DNA from: Methylobacterium sp. AMS5
GTDB taxonomy: Bacteria; Pseudomonadota; Alphaproteobacteria; Rhizobiales; Beijerinckiaceae
Length of the DNA: 64,000 nt
Direction: 5' to 3'
NCBI RefSeq assembly: GCF_001542815.1
Contig: NZ_CP006992.1
Coordinates: forward strand, 3,849,501-3,913,500
The notes under the pieces were generated by a model. The model worked only from the letters and a program-made list of their open reading frames with translations. It was not told where the DNA came from and ran no database searches. This document shows, one piece after another, positions 55,678-64,000 of the stretch. The translations under genes were made by a program, and so were the position numbers. Position 1 is the stretch's first letter; each line of letters starts with the position of its first letter.

Positions 55678-55767
55678 GGAAGGGTGGCCGAGTGGTTTAA
55701 GGCAGCGGTCTTGAAAACCGCCGTGGGGGCAACTCCACCGTGGGTTCGAATCCCACCCCTTCCGCCA
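55678..55767 (+). tRNA. tRNA-Ser (UGA)
   Basis: A 90-nt class II tRNA. The acceptor arms GGAAGGG and CCCTTCC pair, with G73 and an encoded CCA. The D-loop GGTTTAAGG, the anticodon stem GCGGT/ACCGC with loop CTTGAAA (anticodon TGA at 55712-55714), a long variable arm and the T-arm GTGGGTTCGAATCCCAC are all present. It reads UCA codons. A T-run follows. Its 3' end is the likely integration target for the downstream element. Confidence 0.97.
55742..55767 (+). other. candidate attachment site (attL core) at the tRNA 3' end
   Basis: P4-type tyrosine integrases commonly recombine at the T-arm and acceptor end of a tRNA gene and restore the gene. The integrase gene begins 165 bp after this tRNA. 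The matching direct repeat at the far end would be beyond 64 kb, so the exact core is inferred from position only. Confidence 0.42.
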
Positions 55768-55931
55768 GTTTTTTGATCTGCATGGCCATGCGTGGTTTTC
55801 CGGGTTGTCGAACCCGTTGATGCAGCACCATATTCTCCAGTGACGTGGTCGCACGGGGGTACGTCAGGACCGCCAAGGATACGCGTTGTGCTTGGGCAAC
55901 CGCTTGGGCACCCTCGTACCGGGATCGGACC

Positions 55932-57218
55932 ATGCCCGCCATCAACAAGCTGACCGCCAAGCAAATCGTGACCCTACCCCTCGGCCTGCACAGCGATGGC
56001 GGGAACCTCTACCTATCAGTGCGCCCGGGCGGATCACGCCAATGGGTAATGCGCTATCGATTCGGCGGGCGACAACGCGAACTAGGCCTCGGAGGAGCTG
56101 GACCCCATGCGTTGACGCTCGCTGCCGCGCGGACGGCGGCCGAGGAGATCCGCTCGCAACTCCGTCGGGGCGTCGATCCCTTAGCGAAGCGCGAAGCGGA
56201 CGCGAAGGTGTTGCGCATCCCAACATTCCGTGAAGCTATGGATGATTTCATCAAGCGTAGCGAGAGCACTTGGAAGAGCAAGAAGAGCGCCCCGCAGTGG
56301 CGAGCCAGCCTTGACACCCATGCTGCGGCTCTGATGAAGCGGCCTGTTGATCAAATCGACACGAGCGACGTCATCGCCGTCCTCGACCCGATCTGGAGTC
56401 GCCTCCCTGAGACCGCCAAGCGGGTTCGCGGACGGATCGAGGCGATCCTATCGATGGCCAAGACGTGCGGCTTCCGCTCCGGAGAGAACCCCGCCGCCTG
56501 GCGCGATAACCTTAAGAACGTTTTCCCGGCTAAGCCAAAGCTCGTGCGTGGCCATTTCAAGGCGATGGATCACGACGAGATCCCAGCCTTCATGATCCAA
56601 CTACGCACCACCGATTCGATGAGCGCACTGGCGCTGGAGTGGATCATCCTGACTGTCCTGCGCCCAAGCGTCGGCGTGAGCGCGCACTGGTCGGAAATCG
56701 ATAGGAAGACCGGAACCTGGACGATTAAGGCGGAGCGTATGAAGAGCCGTAAGGAAGCGGCTCTCGTCGGCGAAGATCACGTCGTGCCACTCTGCGACCG
56801 CGCCCTCGACCTCCTCGATCGGGTTGAAGCGCTCCGACTCACGAACAAGGGCGATGAGCTTCTCTTTCCGAGCCAGAAGCTCAAGCCACTCTCTTTGACG
56901 GCGCTCGAACACTGCCGTGAGCGGATGGGTGTTCATGTGACGACTCACGGCTTCCGCGCGACCTTCCGGACATGGGCCAGTTCCGCCACGTTCCACGAGG
57001 TGGAACTGGCTGAGAAGGCGCTCGGCCATCTGGTCGGGGACGAGACCGAACGCGCCTACAACCGTGGCCACCTGCTCGAAAAGCGACGACGGCTGATGGC
57101 CGATTGGGCAGACCACTTGGCCGGCACCCTGACCCCGAAGAAGAACCCGTTCGTCATCCAGGGCAGCGCGGTCCCACAGCAGGTCGTCAATGAGATGCGC
57201 AGACGCTGGGCACGTTGA
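55932..57218 (+). CDS. int: P4-type tyrosine recombinase (integrase)
   Basis: This is a 428-residue site-specific recombinase. The N-terminal DUF4102-like arm-binding domain is MPAINKLTAKQIVTLPLGLH followed by GNLYLSVRPGGSRQWVMRY. The core-binding domain lies around 100-200. The catalytic set is R244 (in VLRPS), H339 and R342 (THGFRATFRTWA), H366 (ALGHLVG) and tyrosine Y376 (RAYNRGH). The usual glutamate four residues after the first arginine is replaced in LRPSVGVSAHW. The start at 55932 matches the family; an earlier in-frame start lies closer to the tRNA. It reads away from the tRNA-Ser and would catalyse integration there. Confidence 0.93.
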   Translation: MPAINKLTAKQIVTLPLGLHSDGGNLYLSVRPGGSRQWVMRYRFGGRQRELGLGGAGPHALTLAAARTAAEEIRSQLRRGVDPLAKREADAKVLRIPTFREAMDDFIKRSESTWKSKKSAPQWRASLDTHAAALMKRPVDQIDTSDVIAVLDPIWSRLPETAKRVRGRIEAILSMAKTCGFRSGENPAAWRDNLKNVFPAKPKLVRGHFKAMDHDEIPAFMIQLRTTDSMSALALEWIILTVLRPSVGVSAHWSEIDRKTGTWTIKAERMKSRKEAALVGEDHVVPLCDRALDLLDRVEALRLTNKGDELLFPSQKLKPLSLTALEHCRERMGVHVTTHGFRATFRTWASSATFHEVELAEKALGHLVGDETERAYNRGHLLEKRRRLMADWADHLAGTLTPKKNPFVIQGSAVPQQVVNEMRRRWAR

Positions 57219-58216: not shown

Positions 58217-58402
58217 TCACGCGCTGCGGCGGCGTAACTCGGAGATCCGCGCGTTCAGTACGGCGCGTAGCTCCTGGATCTCGGCATAGGCGACTTCCGC
58301 CTTCTCGAATGCGGCCAGCCCATCGCGGCGGATCTCCTGCGTCAGCGCTTCGATGCGCTTGACCGCTGCCAGGAAGTTCGGGGTCTCAGGGGAATGGGTC
58401 AT
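58217..58402 (-). CDS. XseB-like small helical protein
   Basis: This is a 61-residue protein. The segment FLAAVKRIEALTQEIRRDGL followed by FEKAEVAYAEIQELRAVLNARISELR lines up without gaps, apart from one residue, with the two-helix hairpin of exonuclease VII small subunits (FEEALxRLE ... LYEEGxELxxxCxxxLxxAExxI). Canonical XseB is about 80 residues, so this is a short version. In Exo VII several XseB copies wrap the coiled coil of XseA. It starts 23 bp after a full-length XseA-like gene, which is the main support for the call. AAGGA precedes the ATG. Confidence 0.68.
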   Translation of the reverse strand: MTHSPETPNFLAAVKRIEALTQEIRRDGLAAFEKAEVAYAEIQELRAVLNARISELRRRSA

Positions 58403-58425
58403 GGTATCGGTGTCCTTGAGTGATG

Positions 58426-59850
58426 TCAGTGAGCGGTGGAAGTGAAGGGTTCGACCCGGACGGGTACGACGGCGCCGTCCGAGAATTGCAGCAGCAGCGG
58501 CAGACCCTCTGAGAGGTCACGGGCGCTGGTCACGATGCAGCCCGTGTCGGTCGCGATTACCAGCGCCAGAGCGTCACTCAGAGCTGTGTCGTCCGCGGTG
58601 TCACCGGGAGGACCCACCTCGACGGGATCGGTCTCCGAGTCATTCCGCGCTATCTCGCCGGTTGCCGCGCTCAATCCCAGCAGCAGGCTCTGCTCGACGG
58701 CCCGATCGAGCTGCCGCAGCCGGGCCTCGGCCCCGGTGACGAGATCCTGAAGCGCCGCGTCGAACGCGGTCGCGGCTCGCCCGAGGGCGATGCGGCCGGC
58801 TGCCCCGAGATCCTCCTCGATCACAGCGTCGAGGGCGGCGAGCGCGCGCTCGGCCCGGAGGCCTGTGCGCTCGACGAGGTGGCGCAGCAGCATCGCGGCC
58901 GCTGTCGGGGTCGGCTCCGAGCGCGCCGCCACCGCATCGAGGGCGGTGCGTGGCGTGCCGGCATGGCCTAGCCCCACGATCAGGTTCGGCACCCGACCAA
59001 CTGTCGCGGCACGCGCAACCGCGTGAGCGTTAAGCGGACGGAACGCCTCGACCGGCCCACCGCCGCGGCAGACCAGGGTTGTCGACAGGCCGTATTCGGC
59101 GTTCAGACTCGTCACATGGGCAAGCGCCTTGGCCAGCGCGCGTTCGGCCCCCGCCCCCTCAAAGCTTGCATATACCCGGTGGAGGCGGATGAGGCCGGCC
59201 CTTTCGAGCGGCTGCAGAACGTGCTCGACGTCGCGCCGCGCCTCCCCGTGCTCGGAGACCACGAGCGCGATGTGATGGGGATCCTCCGGCTCGATCCAAG
59301 TGTCCGGCCCGAAACGAGCGCCCTCCAGTCTGAGTTGCTGCAGCGTGCGTTCGCGCTCGAGTTCTGCTTCGAGCGGGGTTTGCCCGAGCGAGAGCAGGGC
59401 CATCAGCTTAGCCTGGACGCCAGCTCCGCGGCCGAACCGCTGACGCAGGCCGGTGCGCAACTGAACTTCGACGATGCGATTGACTAGGTCGGCCGGATCG
59501 AAGTCAACGCCACGCTCCGCTCGGATCTGAGCGAGCTCGGGTGCATCGAGGCGGACCTTCAAGCGCGGTGGATCGTGGCTGAGGCTTGCCTGCGCTTCGC
59601 CCAGCATGAGGAGATAGCGGTCGGGACCGGCGGCGTCGACTGTGAGGACGCAGGCCCGCACGTTGTGTTCGCCGCGCAGCCGCTGGCGCAGCCAGCCGAT
59701 CAGGTCGCGCAGTTCGTCCACGTCGGCGGCGGCTCGGGCAGGTTCAAGCGCGCTGCCTCGGCTGTGGCGGACGCCCGGTGGCGCGGCGCGGCCTGGCTGA
59801 AGCTGGAGTGGCGGTGTGTCCCTCCGACCGGGGAATCGGTGATGTCGCAT
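58426..59850 (-). CDS. exonuclease VII large-subunit-like protein (XseA-like)
   Basis: This is a 474-residue protein with the complete XseA domain order: a short helix and OB-fold (about 43-155, VDELRDLIGWLRQRLRGEHN), a catalytic domain (about 190-320), a helical coiled coil (about 320-400) and the C-terminal strand region (SDALALVIATDTGCIVTSA). Motifs aligned to E. coli XseA are: ALVVSEHGEARRDVEHVL with the conserved Asp (D207), CRGGGPVEAFRPLN with R262, and VGLGHAGT with H296, but the canonical GHETD is GHAGT, so the second catalytic Asp is missing. PTPTAAAMLL is kept. The enzyme may be active with altered chemistry or be DNA-binding only. The start at 59850 is chosen; an upstream extension is basic and unlike XseA. 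Mobile-element copy, not the chromosomal housekeeping gene. Confidence 0.8.
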   Translation of the reverse strand: MRHHRFPGRRDTPPLQLQPGRAAPPGVRHSRGSALEPARAAADVDELRDLIGWLRQRLRGEHNVRACVLTVDAAGPDRYLLMLGEAQASLSHDPPRLKVRLDAPELAQIRAERGVDFDPADLVNRIVEVQLRTGLRQRFGRGAGVQAKLMALLSLGQTPLEAELERERTLQQLRLEGARFGPDTWIEPEDPHHIALVVSEHGEARRDVEHVLQPLERAGLIRLHRVYASFEGAGAERALAKALAHVTSLNAEYGLSTTLVCRGGGPVEAFRPLNAHAVARAATVGRVPNLIVGLGHAGTPRTALDAVAARSEPTPTAAAMLLRHLVERTGLRAERALAALDAVIEEDLGAAGRIALGRAATAFDAALQDLVTGAEARLRQLDRAVEQSLLLGLSAATGEIARNDSETDPVEVGPPGDTADDTALSDALALVIATDTGCIVTSARDLSEGLPLLLQFSDGAVVPVRVEPFTSTAH

Positions 59851-59938
59851 TGTGTCCGTCTGTGTGTCGTCGTGTGAATGGCGGGGGCGAGCGGTCCGGC
59901 GGCCGTCATGCGGTCGCCGGACCGTGGACAAGAGTGCG

Positions 59939-60943
59939 TCAGTCGAAGAGCGCTCCGCCCTCGGCTGGCCGGTCCTCGGCCGCCGGTGCCAGTTCGAGCT
60001 CACGAGCAATCGCCTCGAGGCGGGGCCGGTCGACCTCACGCAGCTCGCGGTGCAAGATCTCGATCAGCAGCGCGGCGAGTTCGGGTGCGGTGTCGAAGCT
60101 GCGGAAAGCGAGCCCGTCGAGCAGCGTCACCGGCCGGGTCCGACGCGTCATGATCGGCACCGGGAACTCGCATAGCCGCTGCGCCAGCCCCGGATCCGAT
60201 AAGGCGCGGAAGGCGAAGCCGGAGCCCGGTTCGACGATCACCGCGTCGAGCGTGCCCCACTCGAGTTGTCCTTCTGCGGCATCGAGAGCGCGGTGAAGCG
60301 ACGCCACCGAACCCGGCTCTTCAAAAGCGAGCTGGTGGCGGATCAGCGCGATCATCCCGAGTTCGTGCCAGCGAGCGAGACCGTCCCCGATCGCGTGCGG
60401 CGCGCCGTCGTCCGGCTCGATCAGGAACACCCGGCGCAGCCGGCGCGGCATCGGCAGCTCGTGCTGCCGATTCCACAGGCCGTTGGCGTCGAGCGCCTCT
60501 CGCGCCCGTGCGTCCTGCTCGGCCCAGGCCCTGAGCATCAGGCCGCGATCCAGGCCGATGATCCGCCCGGTGAGGCCAAGCAGCGGATCGACGGTGAGGG
60601 TCAGGAGGACAGTATGGTCGCCGACGAGATCCTCCTCGTGCAGCAGGATCCCCGATGCTTCTTGGATACGCTGTGTGAAGTCGCCGGATAAGAAGGCGGT
60701 GAGCCGACCGCTGTGGGTCGGATCAAGCGCTTGGAGGTCGAACAGCCAGCCGTCACGGTGACGTCTGGGGCGGCTCGCCGTAGCCCGCACCCATAGGCCG
60801 GTAGGCTCGAGCGGGCAGGCGGCCGCGTCCGCACCGGCGGGCATGTCATGATGTGTCATTTGGGGAGGTCCATTGTCGGAGGAGAGGTCGAAGGAACCTC
60901 GCCGACGCGAAGCGGACGCTGTCTCAGCGCCGCCCTGCTTCAC
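59939..60943 (-). CDS. degenerate XseA-like protein lacking a coiled coil
   Basis: This is a 334-residue protein. Residues 48-140 look like the XseA OB-fold (GLWVRATASRPRRHRDGWLFDL, then LTVDPLLGLTGRIIGLDRG). Residues 145-295 follow the XseA catalytic-domain order: AREALDANGLWNRQHELPMP, RRVFLIEPDDGAPHAIGDGL, and LDAVIVEPGSGFAFRALSD in place of the RGGGS-EDL motif, then VPIMTRRTRPVTLLDGL in place of VGHETDxTxxD. The arginine and histidine needed for catalysis are therefore lost. The chain ends where the coiled coil would begin. It is a probable partner subunit of the next gene (88 bp downstream). The GTG at 60943 follows GGAAGGACG; ATG at 60859 is an alternative. Confidence 0.7.
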   Translation of the reverse strand: MKQGGAETASASRRRGSFDLSSDNGPPQMTHHDMPAGADAAACPLEPTGLWVRATASRPRRHRDGWLFDLQALDPTHSGRLTAFLSGDFTQRIQEASGILLHEEDLVGDHTVLLTLTVDPLLGLTGRIIGLDRGLMLRAWAEQDARAREALDANGLWNRQHELPMPRRLRRVFLIEPDDGAPHAIGDGLARWHELGMIALIRHQLAFEEPGSVASLHRALDAAEGQLEWGTLDAVIVEPGSGFAFRALSDPGLAQRLCEFPVPIMTRRTRPVTLLDGLAFRSFDTAPELAALLIEILHRELREVDRPRLEAIARELELAPAAEDRPAEGGALFD

Positions 60944-61366
60944 CCGTCCTTCCCGGGATTTTCAGCGAAGGTGCCTTCGCCCTTTCCCCTCTCGATCCCT
61001 GTTCTCCCAGCACCCGAGCAACGGCTTGGGTGCGCACGTCTTTTCCGTCTTTCGTGATATCCAACGCAGGCGCGTGTGCTGTCGGGAGCCTGTATCCAAG
61101 GCATCGCGGTGCCGAGCGACGAAGGCTGTTGCGTTCCGCCTCGAGCCGGCGCGGCCCTAGGGTGCAGCGCGTCCGCAATCTCCCTGAGCGCCGATCTCAC
61201 CGCCCCCCCGGGCCGTGTGGATCACCACCGCCGTTCCTCGATCTCCTGCTTGTCGTACCCACTTGGCTTCGCACCTCGGCGGACGAGGCACCGGTCCGGC
61301 GAACGGAGGCACAGCTTTGCGGGTCCGTGCTCGGTGTCGGGCGATAAGTGGGGGCTCATGGCAGCA
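60944..61366. other. gap between relaxase and XseA-like genes
   Basis: About 420 bp of mixed composition with no supported gene; frames on both strands lack ribosome sites and change composition along their length. It probably holds the minus-strand promoter of the exonuclease VII-like cassette. It could also contain the origin of transfer, which often lies near the relaxase gene, but no clear inverted repeat and nic site are recognised. Confidence 0.45.
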
Positions 61367-64000
61367 TCAGATGTCTAATCCGGAGCCCACTTTCGCACCC
61401 TGACGCCGCCTTGCCTGTTTGCGCCGCAGGCCCGCTTCTTCCGGCTCGACCATGAACTCGATCGATCGAGATATGTCTTCAACGGCCTGGCTGACCTCTC
61501 CGTTTCGAGGCTGCTTCGAGATCGCCGTGAGAATGGCGTGGGTCGTCCGGACCTGTGAATCCAGCCATTCGGTGAGTGAGTGCCCCCAACCGTCGAGGCG
61601 CTCCATGTCCCGCCGTCGGCCGAATTGCCGGGCGATAGGTCCCGGTCTCATCACGACATTGCGATCTGGGTCGGAAAGACCCCGCATTAGATCCATGATC
61701 TGGGCACGTTGCCGCTCGAGCAGTTCGCCGATCTCCTCCGCCCATTGCTCCAGACGCCGTAGAACCCGTCCTCGAGCGAAGCCTCCCAGTTCCAGTCCTT
61801 CGATAGCCTTGCGGGAAACCCCGCCTTCGTCCCGGCGGGACAGCGTATCCGCCATCACGGCCGTGTCGGCGAGTTGACGGGCAATCGGCTCTGCGATCGT
61901 CTCAGCCCAGTCCGTCAGCGCCGCAACCTCCCGGCCGCGCACGAAACCGCGCCTCAGGCTGACCCGCGTGAGGCCGCGCCGCGCGCACGCTTCAAGGGGT
62001 GCCAGCGCCAGAGGCAGCGTCCGCCGAGCGTCGGCGGCGACTTCTCGCGCCCGTGAGACCAGGGCCGTCGCCGTCACGACCGTAGGCTCTCGCGAGAGGT
62101 TGGCTGCCACACGGTCCCAGATCTCGTCGTCCGTCACGGGGCAACGGGCACCGATCGGGCGTCGGCCCGCGATCGCCACCCGCTCCGCAGTCTCACCGCA
62201 GATCAGGTAGCTCCGCGCCCGGTGCCGGCTGGCCGCGGTATAGCCGCGGAAGGCGTCGACGGGTGCCGAGCCGTTTGGCATCACGAAGAGGCTCTCTTCG
62301 CTCGTCACGCCTTGGATGCTGTCGATCGTCAGGACGTCGCCGTATCCCAGCCGGTAGCGAGGCTCGGCGGGATCGCCGTCGGGATGGAGCAGCGTCGTCC
62401 AGGCCACCAACCCCGATCGGCCGCCGATGTCGCGCAGGCGTATGCCCTCCGGCTCGATCGTCTCGACCTCCAGCACGCTGCCGTTGACCCCGATCTCGAC
62501 GGTCTGCCCGCTGGAACTCCGGGCCGGCGTGCGTGCGAACAGCCGAACCCGGTCGCCCACAGCCAGGGTGACCTCGAACTTGCGTCCGACGTTGTCGGTC
62601 GCCTGGACGCGATGATCTGGGCCGACGAGTTCGCCCGCCTTCCTCCTGCGGGCGCGGATCGCACCCGCCAGCATCAGCGCATCGGCGTTGGTCGGGGCGC
62701 TCACCGACAGGCTGTAGGTCGGATCGTCGACGTGCTCGGCCTGTCGCTCGGTCCACAGGTCGGCGACCACCTCCGCAACGGTGGCCGGCGAGCCGGGCAC
62801 GAGCCGCGCAGTTCCGTCGCGTCGCTTGCGCAACAACGCTTCTGCCGCCCGCCCCTGCCGGAACATGCCGGTCGTCTCACGCTCGTCCTGCTCTCTCTGA
62901 CGGACCGTCGTCAGGATCTCGGGGATCGCTTCCTGACCCAGCGCCTCCCGAAGCAACTCGATGACCGGGCCGGCCGCCACGGACGAGCACTGGCGCGGGT
63001 CCCCCACCGCCAGGATCCGGAACCTCCCGTTGGCGGTGCGTAACCGCATCAGCCGGAGCAGGTCGCGAGTGCCGACCTGCCCGAGCTCGTCGATGACGAC
63101 GACCGTGTCCGGCCCAAAAGCAATCTTGCCCCGCTCGCCATCCTGCAGGAGCTTGGCCAAGGCGAGACAGCGTCCCGTCGGGATGCCGGTTTCGGTCAAC
63201 GCGCGCGTCTGCTTCCATCCAAGCGACGTCCCGAACACATGGGCGCCTGCGGTGGTGTAGGCGTCGACCAGAGGCTGCAGCAAAGTCGTCTTGCCGCTGC
63301 CCGCAACGCCGATCACTGCGGTGAAGGCCGCACCGCTCCCAAGCCTGTCCATTGCCTCGCGCTGCGTGCGGCCATGCTCCGTCCCGGAAAAGTCCCGGCC
63401 CGACCGGGACACCGCTGTGGTGATCGCGTTCGCGCTGAGCGCCCCGCGCTGCTCCGCGGCCGCCTCGCGGACGAGATCGATCAACTCGCCTTCCCGCTCG
63501 ACGTGCAGTCCGGTGGTGTAGGACCGGGCCGCGCGCTGCCAGCCTGTCCCGTCTATGTCGGCGCCAGGAGCCCCGGGAAGGAGCGTGACGGTTCGGCCCT
63601 CCTGGCGGATGCCGCGGGTGTGGAGGAGCTCGAGGACCCCTTCGACCTCGTCCGCCCGCTCGATCCCGGCGGCGATCAACGAGCGGGCCGCAGCCAACCG
63701 CACCTGGCTCTCCGGCAGGACTGCCGTGTTCTCCAGCTTCGGCTCCAGCAAGTCGAGGGCGACCGCATAAGCTCGCTCCAAGCGATGCGCTCGGGTCGGT
63801 ATCGGCCGTGAAGGCTCGGTACCGAGCACGCTGAGATGTTCGTAACCCAGGCCGGCCGCTTCGGCCTGCCAGCTCGTACGGTCGCCGAGGTCGTCCCGCT
63901 TGGCCCCGCGCGGATCGCCCTGCACAGCTTGTTTCAGCAGCGCGATGCGAGAGCGCTCCTCGAGTTCATCCCAATCGAGCCCCAGCTTCCCAGCTTGAGC
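61367..64000 (-). CDS. MobF-type relaxase/helicase (TrwC/TraI family), 3' part
   Basis: The frame is open to the window edge, so the N-terminal part, including the HUH relaxase domain, lies beyond 64,000. About 877 residues are visible. A RecD/UvrD-like helicase (AAA_30) begins with QREAMDRLGSGAAFTAVIGV, the Walker A GVAGSGKTTLLQPL and Walker B VVVIDELGQVGTRDLLRL. Next come LAVGDPRQCSSVAAGPVIEL (motif III) and later TIDSIQGVTSEESLF and AASRHRARSYLI (motifs V and VI). The last ~200 residues are helical. In the family the relaxase nicks oriT and the helicase unwinds the transferred strand. It is transcribed toward the XseA-like genes. Confidence 0.9.
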   Translation of the reverse strand, partial: AQAGKLGLDWDELEERSRIALLKQAVQGDPRGAKRDDLGDRTSWQAEAAGLGYEHLSVLGTEPSRPIPTRAHRLERAYAVALDLLEPKLENTAVLPESQVRLAAARSLIAAGIERADEVEGVLELLHTRGIRQEGRTVTLLPGAPGADIDGTGWQRAARSYTTGLHVEREGELIDLVREAAAEQRGALSANAITTAVSRSGRDFSGTEHGRTQREAMDRLGSGAAFTAVIGVAGSGKTTLLQPLVDAYTTAGAHVFGTSLGWKQTRALTETGIPTGRCLALAKLLQDGERGKIAFGPDTVVVIDELGQVGTRDLLRLMRLRTANGRFRILAVGDPRQCSSVAAGPVIELLREALGQEAIPEILTTVRQREQDERETTGMFRQGRAAEALLRKRRDGTARLVPGSPATVAEVVADLWTERQAEHVDDPTYSLSVSAPTNADALMLAGAIRARRRKAGELVGPDHRVQATDNVGRKFEVTLAVGDRVRLFARTPARSSSGQTVEIGVNGSVLEVETIEPEGIRLRDIGGRSGLVAWTTLLHPDGDPAEPRYRLGYGDVLTIDSIQGVTSEESLFVMPNGSAPVDAFRGYTAASRHRARSYLICGETAERVAIAGRRPIGARCPVTDDEIWDRVAANLSREPTVVTATALVSRAREVAADARRTLPLALAPLEACARRGLTRVSLRRGFVRGREVAALTDWAETIAEPIARQLADTAVMADTLSRRDEGGVSRKAIEGLELGGFARGRVLRRLEQWAEEIGELLERQRAQIMDLMRGLSDPDRNVVMRPGPIARQFGRRRDMERLDGWGHSLTEWLDSQVRTTHAILTAISKQPRNGEVSQAVEDISRSIEFMVEPEEAGLRRKQARRRQGAKVGSGLDI

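Follow-up and report, generated by a model that had tools for sequence, protein, structure and literature searches.

The operon and its surroundings

The window analysed here, a stretch of 64,000 nucleotides from Methylobacterium sp. AMS5, contains three minus-strand open reading frames in a row, as an earlier note on this DNA had described, together with several features of a mobile element:

55678..55767, plus strand: tRNA-Ser(TGA), likely integration site
55845..57218, plus strand: tyrosine integrase of the element
58217..58402, minus strand: P3, XseB-like protein of 61 amino acids, named from weak similarity and its conserved third place in the operon
58426..59850, minus strand: P2, XseA-like protein of 474 amino acids, identified by profile and structure-numbered alignment
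59939..60859, minus strand: P1, XseA-like pseudo-subunit of 306 amino acids, with an OB-fold and a degenerate nuclease domain, without coiled coil
60887..60988, minus strand: conserved leader 5' of P1, candidate cis-regulatory element
61200..61343, minus strand: probable C-terminal remnant of a MobP relaxase, directly behind the MobF stop
61367..64000, minus strand, running past the window end: MobF relaxase/helicase gene, its TrwC domain mostly outside the window

Gaps of 88 bases (P1 to P2) and 23 bases (P2 to P3) separate the three genes. The start given earlier for P1, GTG 60943, is probably too early: sister copies share about 90% identity from ATG 60859 on and 70-72% further upstream, where one of them has a stop, and ATG 60859 is therefore preferred. 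The last 17 bases of the tRNA-Ser gene are repeated some 50.8 kb away (L189 3010-3026, E 0.002), forming a candidate att site. The initial view of an exonuclease VII-like cassette on mobile DNA is supported; we read the trio as an exonuclease VII variant carried on a mobile element of Methylobacterium.

Copies, classes and spread

The genome of strain AMS5 carries three trios, and P1 is present in 24 of the 111 genus genomes searched. With a threshold of at least 240 bits, 38 P1 matches were retained, 33 of them followed immediately by P2 in the same orientation; in 31 of these 33, P3 is present as well. The two pairs devoid of P3 lie at a contig end (L122) or have a P2 whose similarity stops early, with no P3 found (L127). 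As for the five P1 matches without P2, two are extra upstream copies, one sits on a short contig (G420:C653), one has a stop and one belongs to a contig without a listed P2. The earlier note would have abandoned its proposal had the three genes not occurred together elsewhere; since 31 of the 33 P1-P2 pairs form complete trios, that objection does not apply. Several elements are near-identical, so that locus counts do not represent independent events. The 31 trios divide into class I (22), class II (8) and class III (1), class II P1 and P2 being 24-28% identical to the window proteins. Four loci in three genomes (L124, L125, L126 and L095; G469, G417 and G466) contain P2 and P3 without P1, which indicates that P1 is not required in every case. 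Additional copies of P1, or fragments of it, are located 5' of complete sets in L032 (3097-3391), L105 (11981-12275), L133 (15454-16353) and L138 (3575-4477). In L005 (8446-9864) and L006 (8870-10288) the P2 genes are nearly identical (dS 0.05) while the adjoining P1 and P3 differ (dS 0.42 and 0.31), likely the outcome of gene conversion or recombination affecting P2 alone.

The family appears to be confined to a narrow group, with the proviso that distant relatives may be missed, search sensitivity being limited. P1 as a single query against 385 genomes of the class returned its own genome and one weak match; a P1 profile run on 397 genomes of the order returned its own genome, one other genome of the genus and one housekeeping-like match. 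In a scan of genome contigs, all 20 loci had titles naming Methylobacterium or Methylorubrum. Matches beyond the genus were a housekeeping-like xseA (G707) and a short one at 33-38% (G075). Among plasmid records, P1 found one trio and three distant XseA-like proteins, and P2 a single record. For P2, a phage gene was rejected: it had no match among phage records, and viral contigs yielded one locus for alignment A2 (the window protein with 25 of 72 search proteins), L194, with a match equal to that of L125. The L125 match agrees with that of an IMG/VR contig; in L125 an ISL3 transposase adjoins P2.

Two XseA-like proteins and an XseB-like one

P2 scores 77.5 bits against PF02601, above the gathering score of 35.9, and P1 is linked to the exonuclease VII large subunit by the profile of its own family and by its fold; the lack of any such match, which the earlier note had named as fatal to its reading, was thus not observed. 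The NCBIfam xseA equivalog (TIGR00237) has a cut-off of 180 bits, and P2 falls below it in the window (79.4 bits) as in class II (88.2) and class III (138.4). Beyond the nuclease domain, we infer the domain make-up of P2.

In E. coli XseA, residues D155, R205, H238 and D241 form what we take to be the active-site set. In the numbering of structure 8txr the first three correspond to D207, R262 and H296 of the window P2, while the counterpart of D241 is T299, bearing out the description of P2 as an XseA-like protein with GHAGT. According to PMC11077951, an xseA D155A mutant resembles the deletion in a persister assay. Alignment A3, made of the window P2, 13 of the same 72 search proteins and 11 locus proteins, holds 25 XseA-like sequences (22 P2, two plasmid proteins and one housekeeping protein), and all 25 retain the counterparts of D155, R205 and H238, which are also invariant across the 32 rows of alignment A5. 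Three places after the histidine, where E. coli has D241, there is a T in 15/15 class I P2 (motif GHAGT or GHAAT) and in the single class III P2, and a D in 6/6 class II P2, in the two plasmid proteins (from Microvirga and Variovorax) and in the housekeeping XseA; this residue was scored by the printed motif, since three rows outside class II are off by one column near D241. Because that counterpart is absent, the nuclease activity of class I P2, the window copy included, is uncertain as judged from sequence.

The predicted structure of P1 has the OB plus nuclease fold of the exonuclease VII large subunit, with the coiled coil missing. Alignment A4 consists of the window P1, 8 of 33 search proteins and 10 locus proteins (A1, of the window protein and 21 of the same 33). 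In all 19 A4 sequences the counterparts of H238 and D241 are missing at the aligned place, and that of R205 is missing in 16, being retained in P0020, P0026 and the L041 copy; in P0020 and L041 a GH is present four residues beyond the aligned place. Fold, profile and lost residues together support the identification of P1 as a degenerate large subunit. This protein is under purifying selection. Its dN/dS (NG86) is 0.10-0.17 in 12 close pairs and 0.36-0.51 in distant pairs, values which rule out a decaying pseudogene. In the same close pairs P2 gives 0.14-0.36 in ten and 0.46 and 1.01 in two with dS below 0.05, and P3 gives 0.12-0.38 in close pairs; in distant pairs, P1 is close to P2 (0.33-0.55), both exceeding P3 (0.12-0.27). 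P1 is broken in some copies: an in-frame stop interrupts it in G420 (the class I trio L115) and G442, and in G435 it is in pieces.

The case of P3 is mixed. A profile built from 26 XseB sequences gives weak scores, but above those of shuffles, and P3 is conserved as the third place of the operon, both of which agree with an XseB-like protein; PF02609 does not recognise it, with no match to P3 either in the Pfam scan or in the genome search, which found only one other place in the genome.

Relaxase neighbours

With tblastn, the flanking sequence retrieved for the 31 trios showed a relaxase gene in 22 cases, always on the strand of the trio: MobF in eight, MobP in seven and MobQ in seven, types being those of the Pfam families of the three query relaxases (the MobF matches of L129 and L131 are merely 32-35% identical). 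The location beside a relaxase gene is thereby confirmed, and other copies adjoin two further relaxase types. The association with MobF that had been suggested as a check exists for those eight trios, while fourteen carry the other types and nine (L106, L107, L108, L115, L118, L123, L132, L133 and L134) show none in the flanking sequence retrieved; five of these (L106, L107, L108, L118 and L123) sit within 5.5 kb of the upstream contig end. Class I trios are found 3' of the relaxase gene, separated from it in several loci by only about 200-520 bases; for classes II and III, five of six relaxases are positioned downstream of the trio. Both PF08751 (TrwC-domain) relaxase genes of the AMS5 genome adjoin a trio.

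To judge from the remnants they left, relaxases seem to have been swapped or to have disappeared from loci that kept the trio. Behind the MobF stop of L005 lies a MobP C-terminus (64% identity, E 9e-15), and L024 keeps a MobP remnant alone. The window counterpart, whose own match (50%, E 1.8e-5) does not stand out from the spurious rows in the same search, is called from its continuous DNA alignment with L005.

SprT-like proteases act in the repair of DNA-protein crosslinks. Of the 31 trios, 7 have genes of this kind nearby; on the strand of the trio, SprT-like metalloprotease genes occur some 0.3-7 kb downstream in L123, L129, L131, L132, L133, L134, L138 and L041. A Methylobacterium bullatum plasmid has a trio, an SprT-like gene and MobF, all on the same strand. 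Past the window end, L187 5428-19889 (genome C1 3918827-3933288) codes for a DrmD-like SNF2 helicase, a TmtA-like sacsin-domain protein, PDC-S68 and a type I restriction R subunit, and these defence-like genes are probably on the same element as the trio.

A conserved leader

About 100 nucleotides 5' of P1 are conserved in 18 aligned class I loci, whichever the relaxase, L040 being the most divergent, and the same leader follows MobF, MobP and MobQ genes. It is laid out as a hairpin-like stretch, AAAATCCCGGGAAGGAC, a second hairpin-like stretch and a GGCTCCTTCGA-like tail. A covariance model made from 15 class I leaders and run on 16 loci (271 kb) placed leaders 50-56 nucleotides before class II P1 in eight of nine loci (E 7e-5 to 0.08), seven more rows (E 0.26-0.82) falling elsewhere in the 16 loci; in the class II locus L131 the model found no leader. 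In L133 and L138 the class II match stands before the additional, upstream copy of P1. The scores of L132 and L133 are alike, and these two loci are probably not independent. Upstream of the class III P1 of L138 a similar stretch can be discerned by eye. Across the 111 genomes the model produced 24 matches with E at most 1.2e-18, each ending about 30 nucleotides before P1, although these elements also supplied the training sequences. A leader match is present in 20 of 23 loci tested, and the other three are P2-P3 loci lacking P1. Within the genus the model also gave nine weaker matches, with E from 1.5e-5 to 0.006; for eight of them the roughly 11 kb retrieved around each contain no trio protein, and these are regarded as chance hits.

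A known RNA family was ruled out, Rfam having no counterpart of the leader. Folding energies of 12 leaders, compared with shuffles, gave z from -3.1 to +0.3, just two being at or below -2.9; a stable structure is not proven, the energies being mostly no better than those of shuffles. We treat the leader as a probable cis-regulatory element.

What the trio may do

Our preferred reading, held tentatively and with slightly less than even confidence, is that of an element-borne exonuclease VII variant acting on single-stranded DNA of transfer. We infer its complex, nuclease activity, substrate and regulation as follows. P2 and P3 would build a core of the XseA-XseB type, which P1 would cap as a non-catalytic partner, creating an asymmetric, more open 'half-spindle'. 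P1 retains just the OB plus nuclease-domain part, which in the E. coli enzyme (structure 8txr) reportedly joins two halves of exonuclease VII head to head. The substrate would be single-stranded DNA arising during transfer of the element, the complex possibly trimming or releasing ends to which the relaxase remains attached, and the conserved leader would control expression of the trio. According to PMC12004951, exonuclease VII excises trapped gyrase-DNA complexes; a variant encoded beside relaxases can therefore reasonably be proposed to process transferred ends.

In favour of this reading stand the homology of P1 and P2 to the large subunit, the degenerate P1 active site under purifying selection, the co-occurrence of the three genes and the relaxase neighbourhood with its conserved leader. 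Against it count the missing D241 counterpart in class I P2, the weak kinship of P3 with XseB, the four P2-P3 loci devoid of P1, the five of 38 P1 matches with no P2 beside them, a P1 dN/dS in distant pairs that resembles that of P2 and exceeds that of P3, and the nine trios in whose flanks no relaxase was recognised. The interpretation of the earlier note is thus partly supported: a joint complex of the three proteins, a P1 that would take the place of XseA copies or recruit single-stranded DNA, and an influence on transfer or phages are its hypothetical parts.

The same three genes might work against the host enzyme, P1, alone or with P2 and P3, joining and blocking the heads of host XseA and thereby shielding the incoming single-stranded DNA of the element. 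The title of Kiyokawa 2020, a reference entry in PMC8174662, has recipient exonuclease VII and SbcCD attenuating the installation of exogenous plasmid DNA, and a stub with the predicted fold of the head domain and a degenerate active site, next to a class I P2 whose active site is changed too, would suit an antagonist. Yet P2 accompanies P1 in 33 of 38 matches and keeps D155, R205 and H238 in all 22 P2 sequences of A3, with D241 as well in class II, residues that a pure inhibitor would not need. We consider this antagonism improbable, and processing of the element's own DNA is preferred to it because of the usual P1-P2 pairing and the preserved P2 residues.

Proximity to relaxases could also be hitch-hiking, and many of the elements are close kin. 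The trio would then be cargo, for example a defence or DNA-repair module, with no functional tie to transfer, in keeping with the defence-like genes that probably share its element and with the SprT-like genes near 7 of 31 trios. However, PADLOC has no model fitting P1, P2 and P3 of the window (its sole row, P2 against REase_II, is weak, E 0.042) and no match to class II P1 and P2, and the strand shared with relaxases of three types in 22/22 cases also speaks against cargo, which we find unlikely. A non-catalytic complex coating single-stranded DNA in the manner of SSB on an exonuclease VII scaffold would explain the loss of H238 and D241 in 19/19 P1, the change of D241 to T in 15/15 class I P2 and the OB part within the P1 model, but it is very unlikely given that D155, R205 and H238 are invariant in P2 and D241 is kept in class II.

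The reading that we retain, a variant acting on the DNA of transfer, can be taken further. Mobile elements of Methylobacterium would have made exonuclease VII into a factor of DNA transfer, its complex split and asymmetric, in which an inactive stub opens the catalytic cage to process or release relaxase-DNA adducts on the incoming strand, or else blocks host exonuclease VII there, under a leader that survives replacement of the relaxase; in this extended form we deem it somewhat unlikely. To our knowledge, it is an open question why exonuclease VII is so elaborately multi-subunit, and so is the fate of covalent relaxase-DNA ends in the recipient. A separate, apparently inactive XseA 'head', kept by selection beside three kinds of relaxase, offers a natural test of both exonuclease VII assembly and the fate of relaxase ends.

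Comparison with known systems

Among the literature titles and abstract openings retrieved, none describes such a three-gene cassette. An analogy can be drawn with the leading-region genes preceded by Frpo, the single-stranded DNA promoters of conjugative plasmids. As presented in PMC7736820, these genes, like the trio, lie near transfer functions, could act on entering single-stranded DNA and have a conserved, hairpin-capable leader; this is no more than an analogy. The XseA-like proteins of Microvirga sp. VF16 pMVF16-5 and Variovorax sp. RA8 plasmid 2 are weakly similar to P1 (both) and to P2 (Microvirga). The Microvirga gene has genes for replication and for a MobA(P) relaxase in its vicinity, and the Variovorax gene is followed by xseB. 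Unlike the trio, these plasmids have a single large subunit with the motif GHATD or GHERD, and neither annotation nor tblastn placed a P1-type gene beside it. The two-gene form mentioned above has the gene order of the trio, with P1 not found.

Housekeeping exonuclease VII (8txr, PF02601, PF02609), whose canonical xseA and xseB are also encoded in the AMS5 genome, shares with the trio the nuclease domain of P2, the counterparts of D155, R205 and H238 and an invariant DG near the C-terminus, as well as the OB plus nuclease fold of P1 and a small protein coded beside the large one. The trio departs from it by the class I P2 motif (GHAGT or GHAAT), by a P2 under the NCBIfam xseA cut-off and by a P3 unseen by PF02609. 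It further differs in its extra degenerate large subunit without coiled coil, and in being mobile, often linked to a relaxase and endowed with a leader of its own.
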